Source: Planctomycetota bacterium (GTDB lineage Bacteria > Planctomycetota > UBA1135 > UBA2386). Taken from it: 8,596 nucleotides of DNA. The stretch covers positions 1-8,596 of the forward strand of contig QJVU01000509.1 in assembly GCA_003235605.1 (NCBI GenBank), in the 5' to 3' direction. The notes beneath the pieces were generated by a model. That model had not been told where the DNA came from. It saw only the letters and a program-made list of their open reading frames with translations, and searched no databases. Positions 1-8,596 of this stretch are shown here, in pieces (the first letter of the stretch is position 1; every line of letters starts with the position of its first letter). A program made the translations under genes and the position numbers.

Positions 1-669
1 ACAGATCTGAGCTTCGAGGACTTCAAGCCGGAGTCGGAGATGGCCGACCTGGCGTTCGACACCACCTACACGGTCACCAAGCGGTTCCAGCCAAGCTACG
101 ACTTCTTCGTTGCCAAGAAGGATGACGACTACTGGGTCAAGTGCAGGGCGGTCTATCGGGGGCCGGACATCAAGAAGGTAGCCACGATCAAGGGTGACGA
201 GAAGAAAGAGGACACCGAGCGCAAGGACAAGTTGATCGAAGGCGCGAAGGAGGTGGACCGCTTCAACGGCCGTCACCAGAGCTGGGTCTACAAGGTCTCG
301 TCATGGACCGCCCAGAACATGACCAAGAAGTTCGATGACCTGGTGGAGGAGGTCATCACCGCCTCTCACATCCTCATCGGTTATGAGGGAGCCGAGAGGA
401 GCGAGGTCAAGGGGCGCACGAAGGAGGAGGCCAAGAAGTTGGCGGAGGAGCTCCTCGTCAAGGTCAGGTCCGAACCCGACAAGTTCGGCGAGTTCGCCAC
501 GAAGCACTCCGACGGGCCCTCGAAGGACAAGGCGGGGGATCTCGGCGAGTTCAACCGCGACAAGATGGAGAAGCCCTTCACCGAAGCTGCGTTCAAGCTG
601 AAGGTCGGGGAGATCTCCGACGTGGTGGAGACCAAGTTCGGCTTCCATATAATCAAGCGGACGAAATAG
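1..669 (+). CDS. Parvulin-type peptidyl-prolyl isomerase with a DUF4340-like N-terminal region (5' partial)
   Basis: The frame is open from base 1, so the gene starts upstream; the ATG at 40 is probably internal. About 222 residues are visible. Residues about 120-221 form a PpiC/parvulin domain: it opens with ASHILI, contains an HSDGPS segment and GDLGEF, then KPFTEAAF, VGEISDVVET and the terminal GFHIIK strand. Parvulins catalyse cis/trans isomerisation of prolyl bonds and usually act as folding helpers. The preceding ~118 residues are charged and soluble, with strand-like blocks (YDFFVAKKDDDYWVK, SWVYKVSSWTA) and a KKFDDLVEE ending. These resemble the C-terminal half of DUF4340 proteins, which often lie next to Gld-type ABC transporter genes; this assignment is my inference. 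No signal peptide can be judged because the N-terminus is missing. The stop lies 47 bases before the senA start, so co-transcription is plausible. The PPIase call is firm, the N-terminal call weak. Confidence 0.85.
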   Translation, partial: TDLSFEDFKPESEMADLAFDTTYTVTKRFQPSYDFFVAKKDDDYWVKCRAVYRGPDIKKVATIKGDEKKEDTERKDKLIEGAKEVDRFNGRHQSWVYKVSSWTAQNMTKKFDDLVEEVITASHILIGYEGAERSEVKGRTKEEAKKLAEELLVKVRSEPDKFGEFATKHSDGPSKDKAGDLGEFNRDKMEKPFTEAAFKLKVGEISDVVETKFGFHIIKRTK

Positions 670-684
670 ACAAGATGCCCCGCG

Positions 685-712
685 GGACGTCTTCCGTACG
701 GGGAAGATGTCC
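685..712 (+). promoter_or_regulatory. Hairpin covering the senA ribosome binding site
   Basis: Bases 685-695 (GGACGTCTTCC) pair with 702-712 (GGAAGATGTCC). This gives an 11-bp stem with a single G-U pair and a six-base loop at 696-701. The right arm includes most of the purine-rich GGGGAAG (700-706) that would serve as Shine-Dalgarno for the ATG at 717. No T-run follows, so it is not a standard intrinsic terminator. A translational control element is one reading, an RNA processing or attenuation site another. The pairing is seen directly; the function is inferred. Confidence 0.5.
700..706 (+). promoter_or_regulatory. Ribosome binding site that supports the senA start at 717
   Basis: GGGGAAG lies 10 bases before the ATG at 717. 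The alternative upstream ATG at 675 has no purine-rich site: it sits 5 bases after the previous stop and would add 14 residues with no family resemblance. Most of this site lies in the right arm of the hairpin at 685-712. Confidence 0.5.
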
Positions 713-716
713 TGTC

Positions 717-2015
717 ATGGTTTCCACAGAGCAGATCCTGGATTGGCTTGTTGACGCAAACCAGCGCACACATGCCGTGTATCTGGATCTCTCCGAAGAG
801 CAGCAGATCGGTCCGCAGATTCAGATCGTCAATCCGCCGCGGTGGGAGGTCGGTCACGTGGCGTGGTTCACCGAGAACTGGGTGCTCCGCCATGCCCTGG
901 GCAGGGAGCCCATCCTGGCAAACTGCGATGCGTGGTACGACTCGATCGCTATCGCCCATCACCGTCGCTGGGTCCTGGACCTCCCGACCTGGGATGAGGC
1001 GCACCGCTACCTCGACGAGGTCGACAAGATCGTAGCAGAAGAGCTGGTGGCTCACCCCGACAACAAGAAGCTGCGCTACTTCGCGCGCTACGCAATCTAC
1101 CACCACGACATGCACAACGAGGCTTTTGCCTACACGCGGCAGACATTGGGCTACCCACCTCCGCCCTGCCTGCCGTCTGCCGAACATTCTCCTGTGCTGC
1201 AGATCGGCGACAAGCCGCCAGGGGATCGGAACTTCCCCGCCGGGACCATCATGGTGGGCGCCAGCAGGGATGACGACTTCGTGTTCGACAACGAGAAGTG
1301 GGAGCATCGGATTGCCTACGACGAGTTCGCCATGTCCTGTTCCACCGTGACCCAGCAGGACTTCCTGGAGTTCGTGGAGGACGGCGGCTACGAGAAACAG
1401 TCCTGCTGGGATGTGGAGGGTCGGAACTGGCTGGAACAGTCTGGCGCCAAGCACCCGGTCTATTGGCGCCGCGGCGCCGACGGCAGCTGGCAGAGGCGTT
1501 GGTTTGATCGCTTGCTACCCCTCGATCCGGTTCTTCCGGTCGTCCACGTGAGCTGGCACGAGGCCAACGCCTTCTGCCGCTGGGCGGGAAGGCGCCTGCC
1601 GACCGAGGTGGAATGGGAGGTGGCAGCAGCCGCGGTTGGACCGGACTGCGATGCCGGCAAGCGCCGTTATCCCTGGGGGAATGCGCCTTGTGGACCGCAG
1701 CATGCCAACCTGGACTGGCAGAACGCGGGTTGTGTCCCGGTCACCGCCTACCCGCAGGGTACATGTCCCGCAGGGGTGCAACAGCTGCTCGGCAACGTCT
1801 GGGAATGGACCAGCAGCGCGTTCCTGCCGTACCCGGGGTTTGTGCCGGATCCCTACAAGGACTACTCCGAGCCCTGGTTCGGGACACACAAGGTTCTCCG
1901 CGGAGGTGCTTGGTGCACCATGTCCAGGATGATGCGCAACACCCTGCGCAACTTCTATGAACCGCACCGCCGCGATGTGTGGGCGGGGTTTCGCACGTGC
2001 AAGGCGTCCGCATGA
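717..2015 (+). CDS. senA: Selenoneine synthase SenA-like (EgtB/SUMF1-family non-heme iron enzyme)
   Basis: This 432-residue protein has an N-terminal DinB-type helical domain (about 1-150) and a C-terminal FGE-sulfatase/EgtB domain (about 185-430). The iron triad of EgtB enzymes is visible as H47 (VGHVAWF) and H129/H133 in an HX3HXE motif. The C-terminal domain carries VSWHEANAFCRWAGRRLPTE, GNVWEWT, VLRGGAW and the ending WAGFRTCKA. EgtB joins gamma-glutamylcysteine to hercynine; SenA uses a selenosugar on the same scaffold to make selenoneine. Three signatures match SenA, as I recall it, better than classical EgtB: the YDSIAIAHHRRW stretch after the first histidine, AFAYTRQTLGYPPP after the HX3HXE motif, and the FYEPHRRDVWAGFRTC end. 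The next gene is a SenB-type glycosyltransferase overlapping by ATGA, which strongly supports the call. The product is probably cytosolic, with no signal peptide. A divergent EgtB or another sulfoxide synthase is the alternative. Confidence 0.85.
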   Translation: MVSTEQILDWLVDANQRTHAVYLDLSEEQQIGPQIQIVNPPRWEVGHVAWFTENWVLRHALGREPILANCDAWYDSIAIAHHRRWVLDLPTWDEAHRYLDEVDKIVAEELVAHPDNKKLRYFARYAIYHHDMHNEAFAYTRQTLGYPPPPCLPSAEHSPVLQIGDKPPGDRNFPAGTIMVGASRDDDFVFDNEKWEHRIAYDEFAMSCSTVTQQDFLEFVEDGGYEKQSCWDVEGRNWLEQSGAKHPVYWRRGADGSWQRRWFDRLLPLDPVLPVVHVSWHEANAFCRWAGRRLPTEVEWEVAAAAVGPDCDAGKRRYPWGNAPCGPQHANLDWQNAGCVPVTAYPQGTCPAGVQQLLGNVWEWTSSAFLPYPGFVPDPYKDYSEPWFGTHKVLRGGAWCTMSRMMRNTLRNFYEPHRRDVWAGFRTCKASA

Positions 2016-2971
2016 AGATCATGATCGTCACGCCGGTTTCCCCGGAGTCGACGCGTGGCAACAGTGTCACGGCCCGGCGCTGGCGTGACATGCTCGTGGA
2101 TCTGGGCCACGACGTTGAACTCGATAGTGCACTGACGGACGAGACCTGTGACCTGCTCATCGCGCTGCACGCCGAACGCAGCCATGACGCCATTGCCAGA
2201 TTCCACGATGCCGTCCCGGAGAAACCGGTTGTCGTGGCAATGACCGGCACGGATCTCTATTTGGATCTTCCGGCGGGCTCATCGCGGGCACTGGAGTCCA
2301 TCGAGGTCGCCGAGCGAGTCATCGTTCTACATCCGTGCGCATTCGAAGCGCTACCGGAGACAGCCCGTGGCAAGGCCCGCCTCGTGATCCAGTCTGCCAC
2401 ACCGACCTCCCGAACACCCACGACGCATGGGCCGAGGTTCGCCATCTGTGTGTTGGCCCACGTGCGCAGAATCAAGGATCCGCTTCTCGCGGCCCGTGCC
2501 GCACGCCGGTTGCCCCGGGACTCGAGGATCCACGTGACGCTTGCCGGCAGTGTGTTGGAGGAAGACATGAAGAGCGAGATCGAGAGCGAAGTCGCAGAGA
2601 ACTCCCGTTTCACCTGGCTGGGCGAGCTGTCCAACGACCAGGCTCGCGACCTCGTGGCTTCGTCGGACATGCTGGTAATGAGCTCCGAGCTGGAGGGCGG
2701 CGCCAACGTGATCAGTGAGGCGCTGGCCTGCAACGTCGCTGTCCTGGCATCACGAATCCCCGCGGCGATCGGCATGCTGGGCGCCGACTATCCGGGTCTT
2801 TTCGAGGTGGGGGACGAAGGGTCGCTTGCAGGCCTTCTGCAGCGCGCAGAGAGCGACAGAGCGTTCATGGACGCACTGCAGGAGCACTGCCAGGCCGTGG
2901 CTTCGCTGGTGGATCCCCGGCGCGAGCGATCGGCCCTGGCCGGCCTACTCACGGAGCTGCGGCAGCCCTAG
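2012..2971 (+). CDS. senB: Selenosugar synthase SenB-like GT-B glycosyltransferase
   Basis: This 319-residue protein has the two-Rossmann layout of GT-B, GT4-like enzymes. It opens with a strand and loop, KIMIVTPVSPESTRGNSVTA. It then has DLLIALHAERS and VVVAMTGTDLYLDL in the N-terminal half. The C-terminal half has CVLAHVRRIKDPLLAARAA and an EX7E nucleotide-sugar motif at E228/E236 (EGGANVISE), then LASRIPAAIGMLGADYPG. These blocks match what I recall of SenB, which transfers a sugar from a UDP-sugar to selenophosphate to give the selenosugar used by SenA. The start was placed at 2012 because the protein then begins with the Rossmann strand and the ATG overlaps the senA TGA (ATGA), implying translational coupling. 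The in-frame ATG at 1979 would add 11 unrelated residues. Function is inferred from family and context; an ordinary GT4 glycosyltransferase is the alternative. Confidence 0.85.
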   Translation: MKIMIVTPVSPESTRGNSVTARRWRDMLVDLGHDVELDSALTDETCDLLIALHAERSHDAIARFHDAVPEKPVVVAMTGTDLYLDLPAGSSRALESIEVAERVIVLHPCAFEALPETARGKARLVIQSATPTSRTPTTHGPRFAICVLAHVRRIKDPLLAARAARRLPRDSRIHVTLAGSVLEEDMKSEIESEVAENSRFTWLGELSNDQARDLVASSDMLVMSSELEGGANVISEALACNVAVLASRIPAAIGMLGADYPGLFEVGDEGSLAGLLQRAESDRAFMDALQEHCQAVASLVDPRRERSALAGLLTELRQP

Positions 2972-2975
2972 CCCG

Positions 2976-3695
2976 ATGCGGGTGATCAGCTACAACCTGC
3001 ACAAGGGCGTACGTCGAGGACAGCGCGATATCCTTGCCGACGCGATCGAGGCTATCGCACAGCGCAAGCCCGACATCCTCTTGTTGCAGGAGGTCTTTCA
3101 CGGCGCCGAGGATGTCGTCAAGCAATGCCACTTCGTGACCGAGATCATCGGCCACGAGTTCATCTTCGGGCCCAATGTCTTCCACAGCCGCGGGTGTCAC
3201 GGCAACGCGACGTTCTCGAATCTCCCGATCGCCCGCGGCCTGAACATCAACATAAGCGAGTCGTTCTTGGAGAGGCGTGGCATCCTGCATGCCCGGTTGG
3301 ATGCCGGCGATCGGACCATCGTGGTGTTGAACACGCACTTCAGCCTGACGGGAAGACAGCGCAGGCGACAGTGGCACAAGCTACAGCGCGTGCTCCCAAA
3401 CGATCGGTCCCACGCCATCCTCGTATGTGGCGACTTCAACGACTGGTCGGGCGCGCTCGACAGGCGGGCCCGAGCCCACGGCAAGCTACACAATGCGCTC
3501 TGGGCACTGCCCAAACGACTGCGGCGCAGCTTTCCCTCGTGGCGCCCCGTTGTGGCCATCGACAGGATCTACTACCGGGGGTTCAGGACCAGACATGTCC
3601 ACGTGCTGGACGGCGACCCCTGGAGGCGGCTCTCGGATCACCTGCCCGTGGAAGCGGACCTGGAGCTCGAGCCCTCCCCTCACATCGGGGAGTAG
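2976..3695 (+). CDS. Endonuclease/exonuclease/phosphatase (EEP) family protein, YbhP-like
   Basis: This 239-residue protein is a complete EEP domain with all metal and catalytic motifs in order: N7 (SYNLHKG), E39 (LLLQEV), NATFSNLPI (77-85), H121 (LNTHFSL), GDFN at 152-155, D196 (AIDRIYYRG) and SDH at 220-222. EEP enzymes are metal-dependent phosphoesterases acting on nucleic acids, phospholipid head groups or inositol phosphates. The FPSWRPVVAIDRIYYRG segment resembles the E. coli YbhP type, whose substrate is not settled. There is no signal peptide or membrane segment. The gene starts 4 bases after the senB stop and lacks a good Shine-Dalgarno of its own, so it is probably translated by coupling in the same operon. 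Its last 16 bases overlap the end of the convergent Usp gene. Family assignment is firm; substrate and any tie to selenium chemistry are unknown. Confidence 0.88.
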   Translation: MRVISYNLHKGVRRGQRDILADAIEAIAQRKPDILLLQEVFHGAEDVVKQCHFVTEIIGHEFIFGPNVFHSRGCHGNATFSNLPIARGLNINISESFLERRGILHARLDAGDRTIVVLNTHFSLTGRQRRRQWHKLQRVLPNDRSHAILVCGDFNDWSGALDRRARAHGKLHNALWALPKRLRRSFPSWRPVVAIDRIYYRGFRTRHVHVLDGDPWRRLSDHLPVEADLELEPSPHIGE

Positions 3696-4627
3696 TGGAA
3701 GTCCTCTGGTTTGACAGCCAGCAGGCAGCACGGGATGTCAGGCAGCAGCCGCTCAGCGGTGTCACCTACCAGGTAGCGCTGCATCCCGGAGCGACCCACG
3801 ATCCCCATCACGAGAAGGCTGGCGTTGTAGCCAGTGACCGAGCTCCAGATGACGTTCTCCGGGTTGCCGGTCTCGACGTGCACGTGCGGTGTGGACTGCA
3901 GGCACATGTCTTCCATGACCTTGGAGAGCTGCTCACCGAGAGCGCGCCGCGCGTTGACTTTCTTTTCCTGATGCTCCCGCAGGACGAGGTCTTTGGCATA
4001 GCCCGCCCTGTACCACCGGCCTTCATACCAGTTCGGTACCGCGTGCACGATGTGAACTTCGCTCTTGTTCCAGCAGGCCCACGACAGCCCGTGCCTGAGA
4101 ACCGGTTCACTGATCGGCGTAAGGTCGCTGGCTATCACGATGGTCTCGTATTGAGGTCGGGGTTGATGCTGCACGACCCAGACGGTGCAGGGCGCAAAAT
4201 GGGCAACGCGCTTGGATGTGCTCCCCATCACCGTACGCGAGAAGCTGGAGCGTTTCCGAGTGCCTACGATCAGGAGATCGTGGTTGTCGGTATGTACCTT
4301 GTTGCACAACTCCTTCCAGGGTGGACCGAAGAGGAACTCCCAGCCAGCGTCGAGGTTGTTGGCGAGCGCGCTGTTCACGAGCTTGTCCATCTCACGGCGA
4401 ATCGCCGGGAGCACCGTGTCTTCGTCACTCTCCGCTGCTTCGCGTTCGGCAGCGGTTTCGGGGTGGGCCTCGAATGACGTCACGAAGGTGATGCGCGAGC
4501 CTTCGACCTGGGCCAGATGTACGGCTCTGTCGACGGCCTCCTTGGAGTCGGGGGTCAGCGCTTCACCCGGAGAAGCCCAGCCTTCCCGAAACTGCACCCC
4601 CACCAAGATGTTGTTGTACTTGAGCAT
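3680..4627 (-). CDS. Tandem-domain universal stress protein (UspE-like)
   Basis: This 315-residue protein has two Usp domains (about 4-153 and 158-310), the layout and length of E. coli UspE. Domain 1 starts NNILVGVQF and ends with a nucleotide-binding-like loop, G122-TR-K-X9-G135-S136, in which the second glycine of the usual GX2GX9G(S/T) is lysine. Domain 2 starts YETIVIASDLT and ends MGIVGRSGMQRYLVGDTAER, which has the GX2GX9G spacing with D after the last glycine, then LLAVKPEDF as in UspE. Usp proteins are cytosolic stress and dormancy factors, some binding ATP; the altered loops make ATP binding here uncertain. A strong Shine-Dalgarno precedes the start. The gene follows the beta-CASP gene on the same strand after 79 bases and probably shares its transcript. 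Its 3' end overlaps the EEP gene tail to tail. Confidence 0.9.
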   Translation of the reverse strand: MLKYNNILVGVQFREGWASPGEALTPDSKEAVDRAVHLAQVEGSRITFVTSFEAHPETAAEREAAESDEDTVLPAIRREMDKLVNSALANNLDAGWEFLFGPPWKELCNKVHTDNHDLLIVGTRKRSSFSRTVMGSTSKRVAHFAPCTVWVVQHQPRPQYETIVIASDLTPISEPVLRHGLSWACWNKSEVHIVHAVPNWYEGRWYRAGYAKDLVLREHQEKKVNARRALGEQLSKVMEDMCLQSTPHVHVETGNPENVIWSSVTGYNASLLVMGIVGRSGMQRYLVGDTAERLLPDIPCCLLAVKPEDFHYSPM

Positions 4628-4706
4628 CGAGCCTCCTTTGACACTAGAGCGACGACCTCGTCAACGACCTACGGCAGAGTGCGTATCCTACATCATGGCG
4701 ATCCGC
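4628..4706 (-). other. Spacer between the beta-CASP and Usp genes
   Basis: These 79 bases separate two co-directional genes. Apart from the Usp Shine-Dalgarno at 4632-4639, I see no convincing promoter hexamers and no hairpin with a T-run. GACGACCTCGTC gives only a weak 4-5 bp stem. An internal promoter is possible but not supported. Confidence 0.4.
4632..4639 (-). promoter_or_regulatory. Strong ribosome binding site of the UspE-like gene
   Basis: On the minus strand the sequence reads AAAGGAGG, ending four bases before the ATG at 4627. This is a near-perfect Shine-Dalgarno, much better than those of the neighbouring genes. It fits a gene that must be translated strongly and independently of the upstream beta-CASP gene. 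Confidence 0.7.
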
Positions 4707-6086
4707 TCATCCGAGCCGAAACTCCTCCCGGTAGACCGGCACGTCTACCCGCCGAAAGCCGACGTCGATCAAGTGCTCCCGGAACGTGATCGCAGGATCT
4801 TCTTCTCCGTGTACGACGAACACTCGTCTCGTATGAGCGGCCAAATGTCGGAGGTTCTGGATCAGCTCTTTCCAGTCCGCATGGGCAGAGAGACCGTTCA
4901 TCTTCCGGACCTTGCAGCGGACGCGATAGCGTTCGCCGAAAACCGATACGTGCTCGTGTCCTTCGACAAGCCGACGGCCCAGGGTCCCCTGTGCCTGGTA
5001 GCCGACGATCAGAACGCAGTCTTCTGGTCTCGAAAGGCTGTGCTTCAGGTGATGCAGCACCCGACCACCCTCGCACATTCCAGATGAAGAGATGATTACG
5101 CCGTTCCTGACATTGTTGAGTCCCTTGCTCTCCTCGACGTCGGCAACGTACCGAACACCATCAAAGAACGGATTCCTTCCGGAAGAGAGCATGTCGCGAA
5201 CACTCTCGTTGAGTACGTCGCGGTGACGCGCCATGATCTTCGTGGCCTTCGTACTCATGGGGGAATCCACGAACACCGGCGTGTTTGGAATACGACCTGC
5301 CGCCATCAACCTGTGAAGAAAGAACAGGATGTTCTGGGTTCGCCCCACCGAGAAAGCCGGAACCAGGACGCGGCCTCCATCCCGCATCTCCTCCTGGAGG
5401 ATCCGTTCCAGATCCGTCTCGAGATCCACGTTATCCGGGTGGAGGCGGTCGCCGTACGTGGACTCGGAAACGAGGATGTTGCACGGCGGTAGCTTCTCCG
5501 GAGGGCGGAGGATCGGGAGGGCTCTGCGCCCGTGATCGCCTGTGAACCCCAGGGTCAGGCTGCCTTTCTTCGCTTGAACGTCGAGGACGACCTGCGCCGA
5601 TCCGAGAATGTGTCCCGCGTCGAGGAAACGTGCCTTGATGCCGGGCGCAACCTCGAAACCCTCGTGGTAGGGAAGCCCGCGCACCTGCCGCAGGGTCTGC
5701 TCGACGTCGGCAATCTCATACGCCGGCTGGAAGCGATGTCCTTTCTTGCCCAGGTAACGGGCATCTGCCGCCTGCAGGTGGGCGGAGTCTGCCAACATGA
5801 TGCCCAGCAGGCTCTTGGTAGGATCGGTACAGTAGATCGGTCCTCGGTAACCCATGCGGACGAGGCGCGGCAGCGAGCCCGAGTGGTCAATGTGCGCATG
5901 GGAGAGGACGACTGCGTCGATCTTGTCGGGGTCGAGGGGCAGACTCGTGTTCAGCTTGTTGGAAACCTGTCGAGGACCCTGCACCATGCCGCACTCCAGC
6001 AGGATCCTGCGGTCGTCGACCGTGAGAAGGTGCTTGCTGCCGGTAACCTGTCGCGCAGCCCCCAGGAACTGGATCGAGATGGGCAT
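4707..6086 (-). CDS. Beta-CASP metallo-beta-lactamase RNase-like protein (CPSF73/YSH1-type)
   Basis: This 459-residue protein has the full beta-CASP nuclease plan. Motif 2 is H63-X-H65-X-D67-H68 (SHAHIDHSG). Later metallo-lactamase ligands are H159 (LDAGHILGSA), D184 (FTGDHG) and H426 (FVVHGEE). The beta-CASP cap lies between them, with motif A E208 (SESTYG), PAFSVGRTQ, ISSSGMCEGGRVLHHL and motif C H402 (NGLSAHADW). The family cleaves RNA as endonuclease and/or 5'-3' exonuclease with two zinc ions; bacterial members of this stand-alone type are cytosolic and mostly uncharacterised. No KH domain precedes the lactamase fold. The start is firm because MPISIQFLGAARQVTGS is the usual family N-terminus. 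No Shine-Dalgarno is visible upstream. The gene is divergent from the APH/P-loop gene and upstream of the Usp gene. All ligands are intact, so it should be active; its RNA targets are unknown. Confidence 0.9.
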   Translation of the reverse strand: MPISIQFLGAARQVTGSKHLLTVDDRRILLECGMVQGPRQVSNKLNTSLPLDPDKIDAVVLSHAHIDHSGSLPRLVRMGYRGPIYCTDPTKSLLGIMLADSAHLQAADARYLGKKGHRFQPAYEIADVEQTLRQVRGLPYHEGFEVAPGIKARFLDAGHILGSAQVVLDVQAKKGSLTLGFTGDHGRRALPILRPPEKLPPCNILVSESTYGDRLHPDNVDLETDLERILQEEMRDGGRVLVPAFSVGRTQNILFFLHRLMAAGRIPNTPVFVDSPMSTKATKIMARHRDVLNESVRDMLSSGRNPFFDGVRYVADVEESKGLNNVRNGVIISSSGMCEGGRVLHHLKHSLSRPEDCVLIVGYQAQGTLGRRLVEGHEHVSVFGERYRVRCKVRKMNGLSAHADWKELIQNLRHLAAHTRRVFVVHGEEDPAITFREHLIDVGFRRVDVPVYREEFRLG

Positions 6087-6148
6087 GAGGGGTCGACATA
6101 ATAGGAAGGTCCCGTAGAGAAAGAGCAGAGAGAAACCGGAGAGAGGAG
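6087..6148. promoter_or_regulatory. Divergent promoter region with overlapping -10-like elements
   Basis: This 62-base gap separates two divergent genes, so promoters for both must lie in or near it. CATAAT (6097-6102, + strand; 5 of 6 to TATAAT) has a weak -35-like TCGAGA at 6074-6079 with a 17-base spacer. The same AT-rich island read on the minus strand gives TATTAT (6098-6103, also 5 of 6), with no good -35. The rest of the rightward leader (6116-6148) is almost pure purine. The hexamers are seen; promoter activity is inferred. Confidence 0.4.
6138..6143 (+). promoter_or_regulatory. Ribosome binding site of the APH/P-loop gene
   Basis: GGAGAG lies five bases before the ATG at 6149. It sits at the end of a GA-rich leader, and a second GGAG (6145-6148) abuts the start codon directly. 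The first has the usual spacing and supports the chosen start. Confidence 0.5.
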
Positions 6149-7765
6149 ATGGACCTCGAACTGCTGATCGAGCAACTGAGCCGCCCGCAGGCCTTTCCCG
6201 GCCTTCCGGGACCGGTGCGCCACCTGGAGACCCACATCTCGGTGCTCTTCTTCGTCGGCGGATTCGTGTACAAGGTCAAGAAGCCCGTCCAGTTCAGCTT
6301 CCTCGATTCTCGCAGCCTCGAGCAAAGGCTCCACTACTGCAAGGAGGAGGTGAGGCTGAACAGCTGTCTGGCGCCGTCGATCTACCTCGGCGTCGTGCCG
6401 ATCTGTCCTGGTGCCGACGGCAGCTTGGTGGTCGAGGGCGAAGGGAATGCCGTCGAATACGCCGTCAAGATGCGAGAGCTCCCCGAGCATCGCATGCTGA
6501 CCAACCTGCTTGCAGCGGGAGACATCGAAAACCAGAAGCTCCGCGACATTGCCGCCGTCCTTGCAAGATTCCACCGAGAGGCGGCAACCGGCCCAGGGGT
6601 GGACGAGCATGGCACTCCGGAGGCCGTTGGTCGCAACGCGCTCGACAACTTCCACGAGACCCGCAGCTTTGCGGAGCCCGGACAAGGAAGGACGATCTCA
6701 CCGACGCTGCATGGTTTCCTGGAGCACACGACCCGGGAGTTTCTGGAGGGCAACGCCGATCTGTTCCTCCGGAGAGTTCGAGATCGGCGGATTCGCGAGG
6801 GCCATGGCGATCTTCATGCTGGAAACATCTGCATCTTGAAGAATCCAGGGGGCGGCCAGCACCGGGTCATCATCTACGACCGCATCGAGTTCTCCGCTGC
6901 CTTCCGGTGTGGCGACGTCGTCAACGATCTGGCTTTCCTGCTCATGGACCTGGATCGGATGGGCTATGCGGCATTCTCGGGCTTCCTGCTCCAGGAGTAC
7001 CTCGGTCTGGCCCGCGATCCAGAGGCATCCGAAGTCGTGGGCTTCTACAAGACGTACCGGGCCATGGTGCGGGGTAAGGTGGCCTGCCTGAGGCTGGCAC
7101 AGGTAGAAGATCCGGACGGTTCGGAGGTCAACGCCGCCAAGGCGCAGGCTGCCGAGTATTTCTACCTGGCCGCCTCGTACGCGTTGTCCCCGGCGTTGAT
7201 CCTCACTTGCGGACCGCCTGCTTCCGGAAAGAGCTGGCTTGCCCAACAGGTGGCGCAGCCTCTCAGGGCAAGAGTGCTCAACAGCGATCGCGTGAGGAAG
7301 CGGTTGGCTGGGCTCGCACCGACCGCTTCAGCCAAAGCTCCCTTCGGACAGGGTATCTACGGCAAGGAGTGGACCCGCAAGACCTACGCAGCACTGCTCG
7401 CGGTGGCCGAGGAGACAATACGCCACGGCAGAACCGTAATCGTGGACGCGGGGTTCCGCACGGCGTCGCAGCGGCTACCATTCCTGGAGTTGTCTCGCCG
7501 GTCGGGTATTCCCCTCTTGCTGCTGGAGGTGGATGCGTCCGAAAACACTCTCCGACGACGACTCCGCGAGCGGGACCAGGGCGAGGGCGAAGTCTCGGAT
7601 GCCGATCTGAGCATCCTGGATCAAGTGCTGGCCGGGTTCGAGCGCCCCGAGGAGGTGGCGCAGCACCAGCGCTTCTTGTGGAAGGGAGAGGGAGACCCAG
7701 AAGAGGCGGTTGCGAACGTGGTCGACGGACTGGTACGATCGGCGCGCAAGAGCTCCACTCGATGA
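6149..7765 (+). CDS. Two-domain kinase-like protein: APH-type phosphotransferase plus P-loop (AAA_33/zeta-like) domain
   Basis: This 538-residue protein has an aminoglycoside-phosphotransferase-like N-terminal half. It carries VYKVKKPVQFSFLD near residue 40, the catalytic loop H219-GD221-LHAGN226, and D244 followed by IEF and DVVNDLAFLLMDLD. The C-terminal domain (about 348-535) begins with Walker A G355-PPASGK361-S362. It continues LNSDRVRKRLAGL, TVIVDAGFRTASQR and an arginine-rich lid (ENTLRRRLRERD), as in small P-loop kinases such as polynucleotide kinase, gluconokinase or zeta toxin. This fusion is a recognised family, usually annotated as bifunctional aminoglycoside phosphotransferase/ATP-binding protein, and real antibiotic modification is unproven. 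Both active-site sets look intact. It is divergent from the beta-CASP gene, and the YbaK-type gene begins 4 bases after its stop, so the two likely form an operon. The substrate is unknown; the Usp and RNA/tRNA neighbours suggest a stress role. Confidence 0.88.
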   Translation: MDLELLIEQLSRPQAFPGLPGPVRHLETHISVLFFVGGFVYKVKKPVQFSFLDSRSLEQRLHYCKEEVRLNSCLAPSIYLGVVPICPGADGSLVVEGEGNAVEYAVKMRELPEHRMLTNLLAAGDIENQKLRDIAAVLARFHREAATGPGVDEHGTPEAVGRNALDNFHETRSFAEPGQGRTISPTLHGFLEHTTREFLEGNADLFLRRVRDRRIREGHGDLHAGNICILKNPGGGQHRVIIYDRIEFSAAFRCGDVVNDLAFLLMDLDRMGYAAFSGFLLQEYLGLARDPEASEVVGFYKTYRAMVRGKVACLRLAQVEDPDGSEVNAAKAQAAEYFYLAASYALSPALILTCGPPASGKSWLAQQVAQPLRARVLNSDRVRKRLAGLAPTASAKAPFGQGIYGKEWTRKTYAALLAVAEETIRHGRTVIVDAGFRTASQRLPFLELSRRSGIPLLLLEVDASENTLRRRLRERDQGEGEVSDADLSILDQVLAGFERPEEVAQHQRFLWKGEGDPEEAVANVVDGLVRSARKSSTR

Positions 7766-7769
7766 GACG

Positions 7770-8264
7770 ATGATCGCCAAGAAGCTCCGCGACTTCCTCG
7801 ACAGGAAACACGTCCGATACGTGACGATCAGCCATTCGCCGGCCTATACCGCGATGGAGACAGCCCATGCGGCCCACGTCCGTGGCAAGGAGATGGCGAA
7901 GACCGTCATCGTGAAGCTGGATGGCAGGATGGTGATGTTGGTGCTGCCGGCGTCCTACCGCATGTACCCGGACCTCCTGCGAGATGCGCTCGGGATCGAT
8001 ACGGTTGAGCTGGCGGGGGAAGCGGAGTTCGCAGCGAGGTTTCCGGGATGTGAGCCGGGAGCAATGCCGCCGTTCGGCAACCTCTATGACATGGACGTGC
8101 TCGTAGATCAGGCATTGGCAGAGGACGAGGAGATTGCATTCAACGCGGGAAGCCACTCCGAGCTGATGCGGATGTCCTGGCTGGACTACGAGGAGCTCGT
8201 GAAGCCGACGCTTGGAACTTTCTCCTTCAAGCTCACTCCCGAGCTGGGTCACGCCGACTCGTGA
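7770..8264 (+). CDS. YbaK/ProX-type aminoacyl-tRNA deacylase
   Basis: This 164-residue protein is a single YbaK-like domain. Family features include YTAMETAHAAHV (26-37), the conserved lysine K44 in AKTVIVKLDG, LVLPASYRM, MPPFGNLYDMDVLVD and FNAGSHSELMRM near the end. Such free-standing editing domains hydrolyse mischarged tRNAs, for example Cys-tRNA(Pro) or Ala-tRNA(Pro), and protect translation fidelity in the cytosol. The length is normal for the family. The start at 7770 gives the usual short N-terminus (MIAKKLRDFLD). The in-frame ATG at 7710 would overlap the preceding gene by 56 bases and add 20 unrelated residues. Only four bases separate it from the kinase gene, with no strong Shine-Dalgarno, so coupled translation is likely. 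Family membership is firm; which tRNA it edits cannot be told from sequence. Confidence 0.88.
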   Translation: MIAKKLRDFLDRKHVRYVTISHSPAYTAMETAHAAHVRGKEMAKTVIVKLDGRMVMLVLPASYRMYPDLLRDALGIDTVELAGEAEFAARFPGCEPGAMPPFGNLYDMDVLVDQALAEDEEIAFNAGSHSELMRMSWLDYEELVKPTLGTFSFKLTPELGHADS

Positions 8265-8276
8265 CTACCTACTATG

Positions 8277-8298
8277 CACCAGAACACCTGGCTGGTGT
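8277..8298 (+). repeat. Nested inverted repeat between the YbaK and Usp genes
   Basis: CACCAG (8277-8282) pairs with CTGGTG (8292-8297) around a nine-base loop. Alternatively, ACACC (8284-8288) pairs with GGTGT (8294-8298) around a five-base loop. The two stems exclude each other because they share the right arm. No T-run follows, so it does not look like an intrinsic terminator. It lies about 47 bases before the next ATG, where an operator for the downstream usp gene could sit. The function is unknown. Confidence 0.35.
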
Positions 8299-8344
8299 GC
8301 TAACATGCGCCACGTCCCCGGCCAGGTAAGGTTGTCGAATCCCC

Positions 8345-8596
8345 ATGAACATCCAGACCATCCTGGTGCCTTGTGACTTCTCCCACAACTCCATGGCGGG
8401 TGTCGACTATGCCCGGGATCTTGCGAGGAAGTTCAAGGCCAAGATCGTCCTGGCCCATGTCTCGCCGACCGCCGAGCGGCTCGTGATCTATGGTCCGCCA
8501 CCGGCCCTCCTCCCCAGGGATCTGGAGGATGCGGTCATGGAGGGGGTCGAGCGGGGCTTTGCCGAGATGCGAGAGCGCCTTGGCGCCTCGGACGAC
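8345..8596 (+). CDS. Universal stress protein (3' partial)
   Basis: The frame is open from the ATG at 8345 to the window end, giving 84 residues. The N-terminus MNIQTILVPCDFSHNS is a typical Usp first strand and loop, with the aspartate that contacts adenine in ATP-binding members. It is followed by AGVDYARDLARKFKAKIVLAHVSP (helix, then second strand) and a long helix with DLEDAVMEGVERGFAEM. The nucleotide-binding glycine loop lies beyond the window, so neither ATP binding nor a second Usp domain can be judged. A Shine-Dalgarno-like AAGG (8328-8331) is rather far from the ATG (13 bases). It is the second Usp gene in the window and is clearly distinct in sequence from the tandem-domain one. 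An 80-base gap separates it from the YbaK gene, enough for its own promoter. Confidence 0.85.
   Translation, partial: MNIQTILVPCDFSHNSMAGVDYARDLARKFKAKIVLAHVSPTAERLVIYGPPPALLPRDLEDAVMEGVERGFAEMRERLGASDD

Follow-up and report, generated by a model that had tools for sequence, protein, structure and literature searches.

An 8,596-nucleotide stretch of a Planctomycetota genome (GTDB lineage UBA1135; UBA2386; assembly GCA_003235605.1, contig QJVU01000509.1, positions 1 to 8,596, forward strand; hereafter the window) was analysed and found to carry a senA–senB pair. At the level of sequence, the pair was confirmed as another instance of the known selenoneine gene pair. It is very probably part of a standard selenoneine module, with selD and egtD predicted to lie elsewhere in the genome. 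A first-pass annotation, made from the letters alone, had proposed such a pair without a local selenophosphate synthetase, and had offered two alternatives for the selenium supply: selenophosphate from a SelD encoded elsewhere, or another chalcogen donor such as a thiosugar.

The SenA–SenB pair

The predicted SenA protein passed the NCBI curated SenA equivalog model NF041186 (488.3 bits, cut-off 420) and failed both the EgtB model TIGR03440 (319.9 bits, cut-off 360) and the OvoA model (149.9 bits, cut-off 400). An FGE-sulfatase domain (PF03781) was detected with 166.8 bits, and the N-terminal part was weakly DinB-like (DinB_2, 22.8 bits, below the cut-off of 24.8). The start codon at position 717 matched the start used by the close homologues P0002 and P0003. 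The three iron-ligating histidines were conserved in every aligned row (Table 1), which bore out the description of an EgtB-like enzyme with an intact H47/H129/H133 triad. The residue before the last iron-ligating histidine, Met132 in the window, was methionine in 69 of 77 rows and threonine in three, with glutamine in the five EgtB rows; methionine was common to the window, Variovorax paradoxus SenA and OvsA. The pocket residues Y383, N412 and F413 were identical to those of V. paradoxus SenA.

In a maximum-likelihood tree of 76 rows, from which the duplicate loci L081, L082, L087, L089 and L092 and fragments with fewer than 350 aligned residues were left out, the window protein was placed inside a 71-row SenA/OvsA clade that excluded the EgtB rows (support 100/99). 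Within it, the protein belonged to a seven-row clade (99/99) together with four database proteins (69–76% identity) and the proteins of loci L004 and L036, both from Planctomycetota metagenome-assembled genomes (MAGs). The model scores and the tree support the first protein as SenA-type, grouping with SenA/OvsA rather than with classical EgtB, as the first-pass annotation had held.

The second protein passed the curated SenB equivalog model TIGR04348 (345.5 bits, cut-off 300). The next-best model, for another glycosyltransferase, reached 115.3 bits, and the solved SenB structure 8jjq was matched with 175 bits (phmmer). Residues N20, T23, R155, K158 and E231 have been studied in V. paradoxus SenB (PMC10891094), and all five equivalents were kept in the window and invariant in the alignment (Table 1), which comprised 95 sequences including the window after seven loci had been dropped as duplicates. 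The call of a GT-B enzyme of SenB type thus held on the family model and these residues, the tree having been built for SenA alone. An EGGAHV motif is reported for a SenB-like set in the same source (PMC10891094), and V. paradoxus SenB has EGGAHV and a valine where window SenB has EGGANV and Cys146. Since asparagine also occupied the histidine position in at least 90% of 21 aligned SenBs, the histidine of this motif is not family-wide. The best organism-named relative of window SenB came from a Planctomycetota MAG (67% identity). Among the matches listed for a sample of 392 Planctomycetota genomes, those of SenB length reached 48% identity at most.

Selenophosphate and hercynine supply

No SelD model or SelD-like Pfam domain matched any of the eight window genes scanned, so the window has no linked senC/selD and the reported absence of a local selenophosphate synthetase stood. 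SelD and SenC are named as one activity in PMC10891094 and PMC11448449. To place the window among related loci, genome contigs were scanned with a SenB alignment; at least 512 stretches encoded relatives, and the best 80 loci were kept, 57 of which had a senA match. At these loci, selD-like genes were sought within the fetched stretch, up to 10 kb on each side. A strict SelD motif had no match in the 80 loci, a looser motif matched at 12, and L048 and L072 came in through blastp with these as queries. Thirty-six loci combined senA with flanks of 5 kb or more to either side of senB, and a selD-like gene was present in nine of them and absent from 27. Linkage to selD therefore does not define the senA–senB pair, and the missing local senC is ordinary; the premise that a pair lacking senC is unusual did not survive this comparison. 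The sen cluster was found by searching genes overlapping selD (PMC9814287), so the expectation of a local senC was built in by design.

Genome-wide searches for selD and egtD were made for 50 of the 80 loci (L001–L050). A selD gene scored above the cut-off in 49 of these 50 SenB genomes, compared with 2 of 14 named control genomes; the sole exception was a 3.0 Mb MAG (G037). The best selD match contained one in-frame TGA in 43 of these 49 genomes, as expected for selenocysteine-containing SelD. Locus L036 had no selD on its fetched contig and one elsewhere in the genome, and the genomes of both L004 and L036 (G004 and G036) had selD and egtD above the cut-offs. With selD in nearly all genomes and away from most well-flanked loci, unlinked selD is the usual arrangement in this set. 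Of the two donor alternatives, SelD encoded elsewhere was thus favoured, and another chalcogen donor gained no support.

EgtD makes hercynine, the substrate of SenA. Matches to egtD were found in 43 of the 50 genomes, 38 of them above the cut-off, compared with none of the 14 control genomes above it. Where the locus contains senA, every one of the 37 genomes had an egtD match (33 above the 290.9-bit cut-off and four at 278–288 bits), compared with 6 of the 13 genomes without senA in the locus, one of which (G031) had just a fragment and weak matches (one-sided Fisher p = 1.7e-5); the class without senA includes loci cut by contig ends, e.g. L025, which weakens the contrast. An egtD-like gene lay inside the fetched locus at 22 of the 57 senA loci, and 11 of these 22 genes were on the senB strand and started no more than 100 bases past where the senB match ends. 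At L036, the gene order was senA–senB–egtD, with egtD directly behind senB. The co-occurrence and this gene order point to hercynine as the substrate of the window SenA.

At one further locus (L014:8670-14548), selenoneine and ergothioneine enzymes adjoined one another: within 6 kb lay senA and senB, a gene resembling egtD and one for EgtB, the last scoring 552 bits against the Cabther EgtB of solved structure.

Alternative activities and the predicted pathway

Several observations weighed against the reading of the pair as a standard selenoneine module, in addition to the contig-end effect on the egtD contrast. A quick tree had joined the window SenA with V. paradoxus SenA (95), a join that the careful tree lost, and the bootstrap of the careful tree had not settled. 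In single-sequence comparisons, the window SenA scored higher against OvsA, with 316 bits, compared with 259 bits against V. paradoxus SenA. Furthermore, selD was common anyway in the sampled Planctomycetota: 18 of 20 SenB-bearing genomes carried it, as did 19 of 30 that lack SenB (one-sided p = 0.034), in a non-random comparison of 20 high-scoring SenB genomes with 30 SenB-lacking genomes (20 without a match and 10 with weak matches). In one of the two SenB-bearing Planctomycetota counted as lacking selD (G437), the match was 0.5 bits below the cut-off and cut at a contig end.

The OvsA scores raised the question of an OvsA-type selenoxide synthase acting on histidine, with an ovoselenol-like product. 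OvsA was the best-scoring solved structure for the window SenA, sits on a long branch inside the 71-row clade that holds the window protein, and shares the methionine before the last iron-ligating histidine. However, all SenA open frames listed, except that of L051, scored higher to OvsA than to the V. paradoxus SenA pieces, which indicates that the difference is general and not specific to the window. The pocket also differed, with Tyr/Asn/Phe in the window, as in V. paradoxus SenA, against Met/Gln/Ala in OvsA chain 8u41. In 8ux5, the other solved OvsA chain, these positions are again Tyr/Asn/Phe; we infer that 8ux5 carries changes and that 8u41 is the wild type. In addition, L036, of the same seven-row clade, has egtD behind senB. 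An OvsA-type activity was rejected as very unlikely. The absence of a selenophosphate synthetase gene from the window would suit a different chalcogen donor, with SenB forming a thiosugar and SenA ergothioneine. This was likewise rejected, as very improbable, given the near-universal selD in the SenB genomes and the 10–20-fold discrimination of V. paradoxus SenB against thiophosphate reported in PMC10702425; the five studied residues are unchanged in the window. The same source also reports that V. paradoxus SenC made no use of sulfide (PMC10702425).

An ordinary ergothioneine EgtB beside an unrelated GT4 glycosyltransferase was refuted at the sequence level and has next to no probability left. 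The window SenA does share the fold family and three-histidine iron site of the EgtB sulfoxide synthases (4x8b, 6o6l) and score on the EgtB model, and a 73% relative, P0003, is labelled EgtB by one named source. Yet the score is below the cut-off, the protein stands outside EgtB in the tree, Met132 replaces the glutamine of EgtB, and the neighbouring protein is a SenB with a wide distance to the next glycosyltransferase model.

The standard selenoneine module thus remained the preferred reading. In the predicted pathway, SelD encoded elsewhere would supply selenophosphate. SenB, whose studied residues are conserved here, would join its selenium to the sugar of a UDP-sugar and cleave the phosphate, giving a selenosugar. 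The iron enzyme SenA would then couple the selenosugar to the imidazole ring of hercynine, provided by an EgtD encoded elsewhere, as a selenoxide, which would lose the sugar and be reduced to selenoneine. The ATGA overlap may couple translation of senA and senB. The SenB and SenA reactions have been demonstrated with the enzymes of V. paradoxus (PMC10702425, PMC10891094 and PMC10903977), and are predicted for this lineage because of family membership and conserved residues. The window resembles the senABC selenoneine cluster of V. paradoxus DSM 30034, as described in PMC9814287, PMC10702425 and PMC10891094, in having both senA and senB, in sharing the residues tested in their products and in the reactions predicted for them. 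It differs in lacking senC/selD and in having an endonuclease/exonuclease/phosphatase (EEP) family gene in third place. L036 has the same tandem senA–senB, with egtD as the third gene instead of the EEP gene.

Gene neighbourhood, related loci and TGA codons in SenB

Table 1. Genes and key residues of the window, with positions, strand and basis.
Feature	Position	Strand	Basis or conservation
PpiC-type peptidyl-prolyl isomerase (PPIase) gene, end only	1-669	+	domain scan
senA, selenoneine synthase, 432 amino acids	717..2015	+	ATG 717, TGA 2013-2015
SenA His47, iron ligand	855..857	+	His in 77/77 aligned rows
SenA H129-H-D-M132-H133, iron ligands H129 and H133	1101..1115	+	both His in 77/77 rows
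SenA Tyr383, pocket position	1863..1865	+	Tyr in 72/77 rows; Met in OvsA chain 8u41
SenA Asn412-Phe413, pocket positions	1950..1955	+	Asn 75/77; Phe 60/77, Tyr 11/77; Gln-Ala in OvsA 8u41
ATGA, senB start on senA stop	2012..2015	+	sequence
senB, selenosugar synthase, 319 amino acids, GT-B fold family	2012..2971	+	ATG 2012, TAG 2969-2971
SenB Asn17 and Thr20 (V. paradoxus N20, T23; donor selectivity)	2060..2071	+	invariant 95/95
SenB Cys146, site of in-frame TGA in L032	2447..2449	+	Cys 68/95, TGA 1/95; Val in V. paradoxus
SenB Arg152 and Lys155 (V. paradoxus R155, K158)	2465..2476	+	invariant 95/95
SenB Glu228 (V. paradoxus E231), in EGGANV	2693..2695	+	invariant 95/95
EEP-family gene	2976..3695	+	PF03372 64.3 bits; ATG 2976
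Universal-stress-protein gene	3680-4627	-	
Beta-CASP gene	4707-6086	-	
Gene with AAA_33 domain	6149-7765	+	
tRNA-editing-domain gene	7710-8264	+	

The positions of senA and senB and their ATGA overlap were borne out by the sequence, and the flanking genes were those initially noted, with a PPIase before the pair and an EEP-family gene after it. The EEP start follows the senB stop with a spacing of 4 bp. From this spacing and the ATGA overlap, senA, senB and the EEP gene probably form one operon, in which the EEP gene is probably co-transcribed with the pair. At an E-value of 1e-6, EEP relatives were present in only two of the 80 loci (L058 and L073), about 2.3 kb from senA. An Rfam scan of the window returned zero families at threshold. 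The beta-CASP protein scored 390.9 bits on the NCBIfam type VII 'Cas14' model, far below its cut-off of 800. Among the matches listed, ten relatives had a named organism, nine planctomycetes and one Pseudohongiellaceae, and the nine planctomycete relatives were MBL-fold or metallo-beta-lactamase family proteins. For two beta-CASP relatives (87% and 79% identity), the longest contigs measure 78,982 and 44,129, equal to those of the SenA relative P0002 and the SenB relative P0130, which hints at a conserved gene order. There is no ground for regarding it as a CRISPR gene.

Among the 52 well-flanked SenB loci, 16 had no senA match (L005, L011, L012, L026, L027, L038, L043, L045, L062, L063, L072, L074, L075, L077, L078 and L079), although L005 had a short match at looser settings. 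A selD-like gene lay near three of the 16 (L027, L045 and L072). Each of the seven genomes without egtD, out of the 50 searched, belonged to the group of 13 whose locus lacks senA. SenB proteins without senA possibly act in other selenosugar pathways. At L071:9961-12198, one 745-amino-acid open frame covered both the SenB and SenA matches, an apparent SenB–SenA fusion. SelD-like frames of 754–758 amino acids adjoined senB at L058:10968-13232, L073:10965-13232 and L076:1985-4261; at about twice the usual length, these are probably fused to another domain. Open frames of 741–766 amino acids were also present at the selD matches of genomes G011, G012, G025, G038 and G050. On the 25 kb plasmid pMPOP01 of Methylorubrum populi (L096, NC_010727.1), divergent senB and senA genes are annotated, and the end of senA shares four bases with an IS6-family transposase gene. 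No selD was among its 16 listed features, in a feature table that can be incomplete, and the SenA frame was without residues in the alignment columns of the C-terminal pocket.

Window Cys146, the majority SenB type, lies nine residues before the catalytic lysine. In-frame TGA codons were observed in several SenB relatives. At L032 (Poribacteria; L032:10433), the TGA falls exactly at the Cys146 position. Four other SenBs shared a single TGA site just behind a QS motif, about 15 codons before the Cys146 site: L018 (L018:9602) and L069 (L069:10388; L107 is from the same genome) in Latescibacterota, and L093/L104 (L093:1885, equal to L104:3721; genome G406) and L101 (L101:2030, minus strand; genome G316) in the Planctomycetota sample. 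L008 and L102 had a TGA elsewhere in SenB. In a phylum sample of 64 genomes, five had a full-length SenB, two of these with the TGA. The predicted fold of 60 bases from the TGA, computed without a shuffle control, contained a hairpin with a three-base loop in L093 (GGA), L101 (GGA) and L018 (GGG), and a small-loop hairpin was less clear in L069 and L032. A small-loop hairpin after the TGA resembles bacterial selenocysteine signals. The TGA-bearing SenBs of Latescibacterota, Planctomycetota and Poribacteria are probable selenoproteins. No mention of selenocysteine-containing SenB was found in the available parts of the SenB literature, texts that were not searched specifically for it, and it may be in print.

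It is conceivable, though unlikely, that Cys-type SenBs, that of the window included, use the cysteine or selenocysteine residue in catalysis, e.g. in taking over or holding the selenium of selenophosphate. Such chemistry was not found described for V. paradoxus SenB in the portions of the literature available. If this were true, the way SenB handles selenium would have to be reconsidered.

The window adds a further lineage to the predicted selenoneine makers. It also illustrates how poorly linkage to senC marks the pathway: had such loci been sought next to selD, 27 of the 36 well-flanked ones would have been missed.

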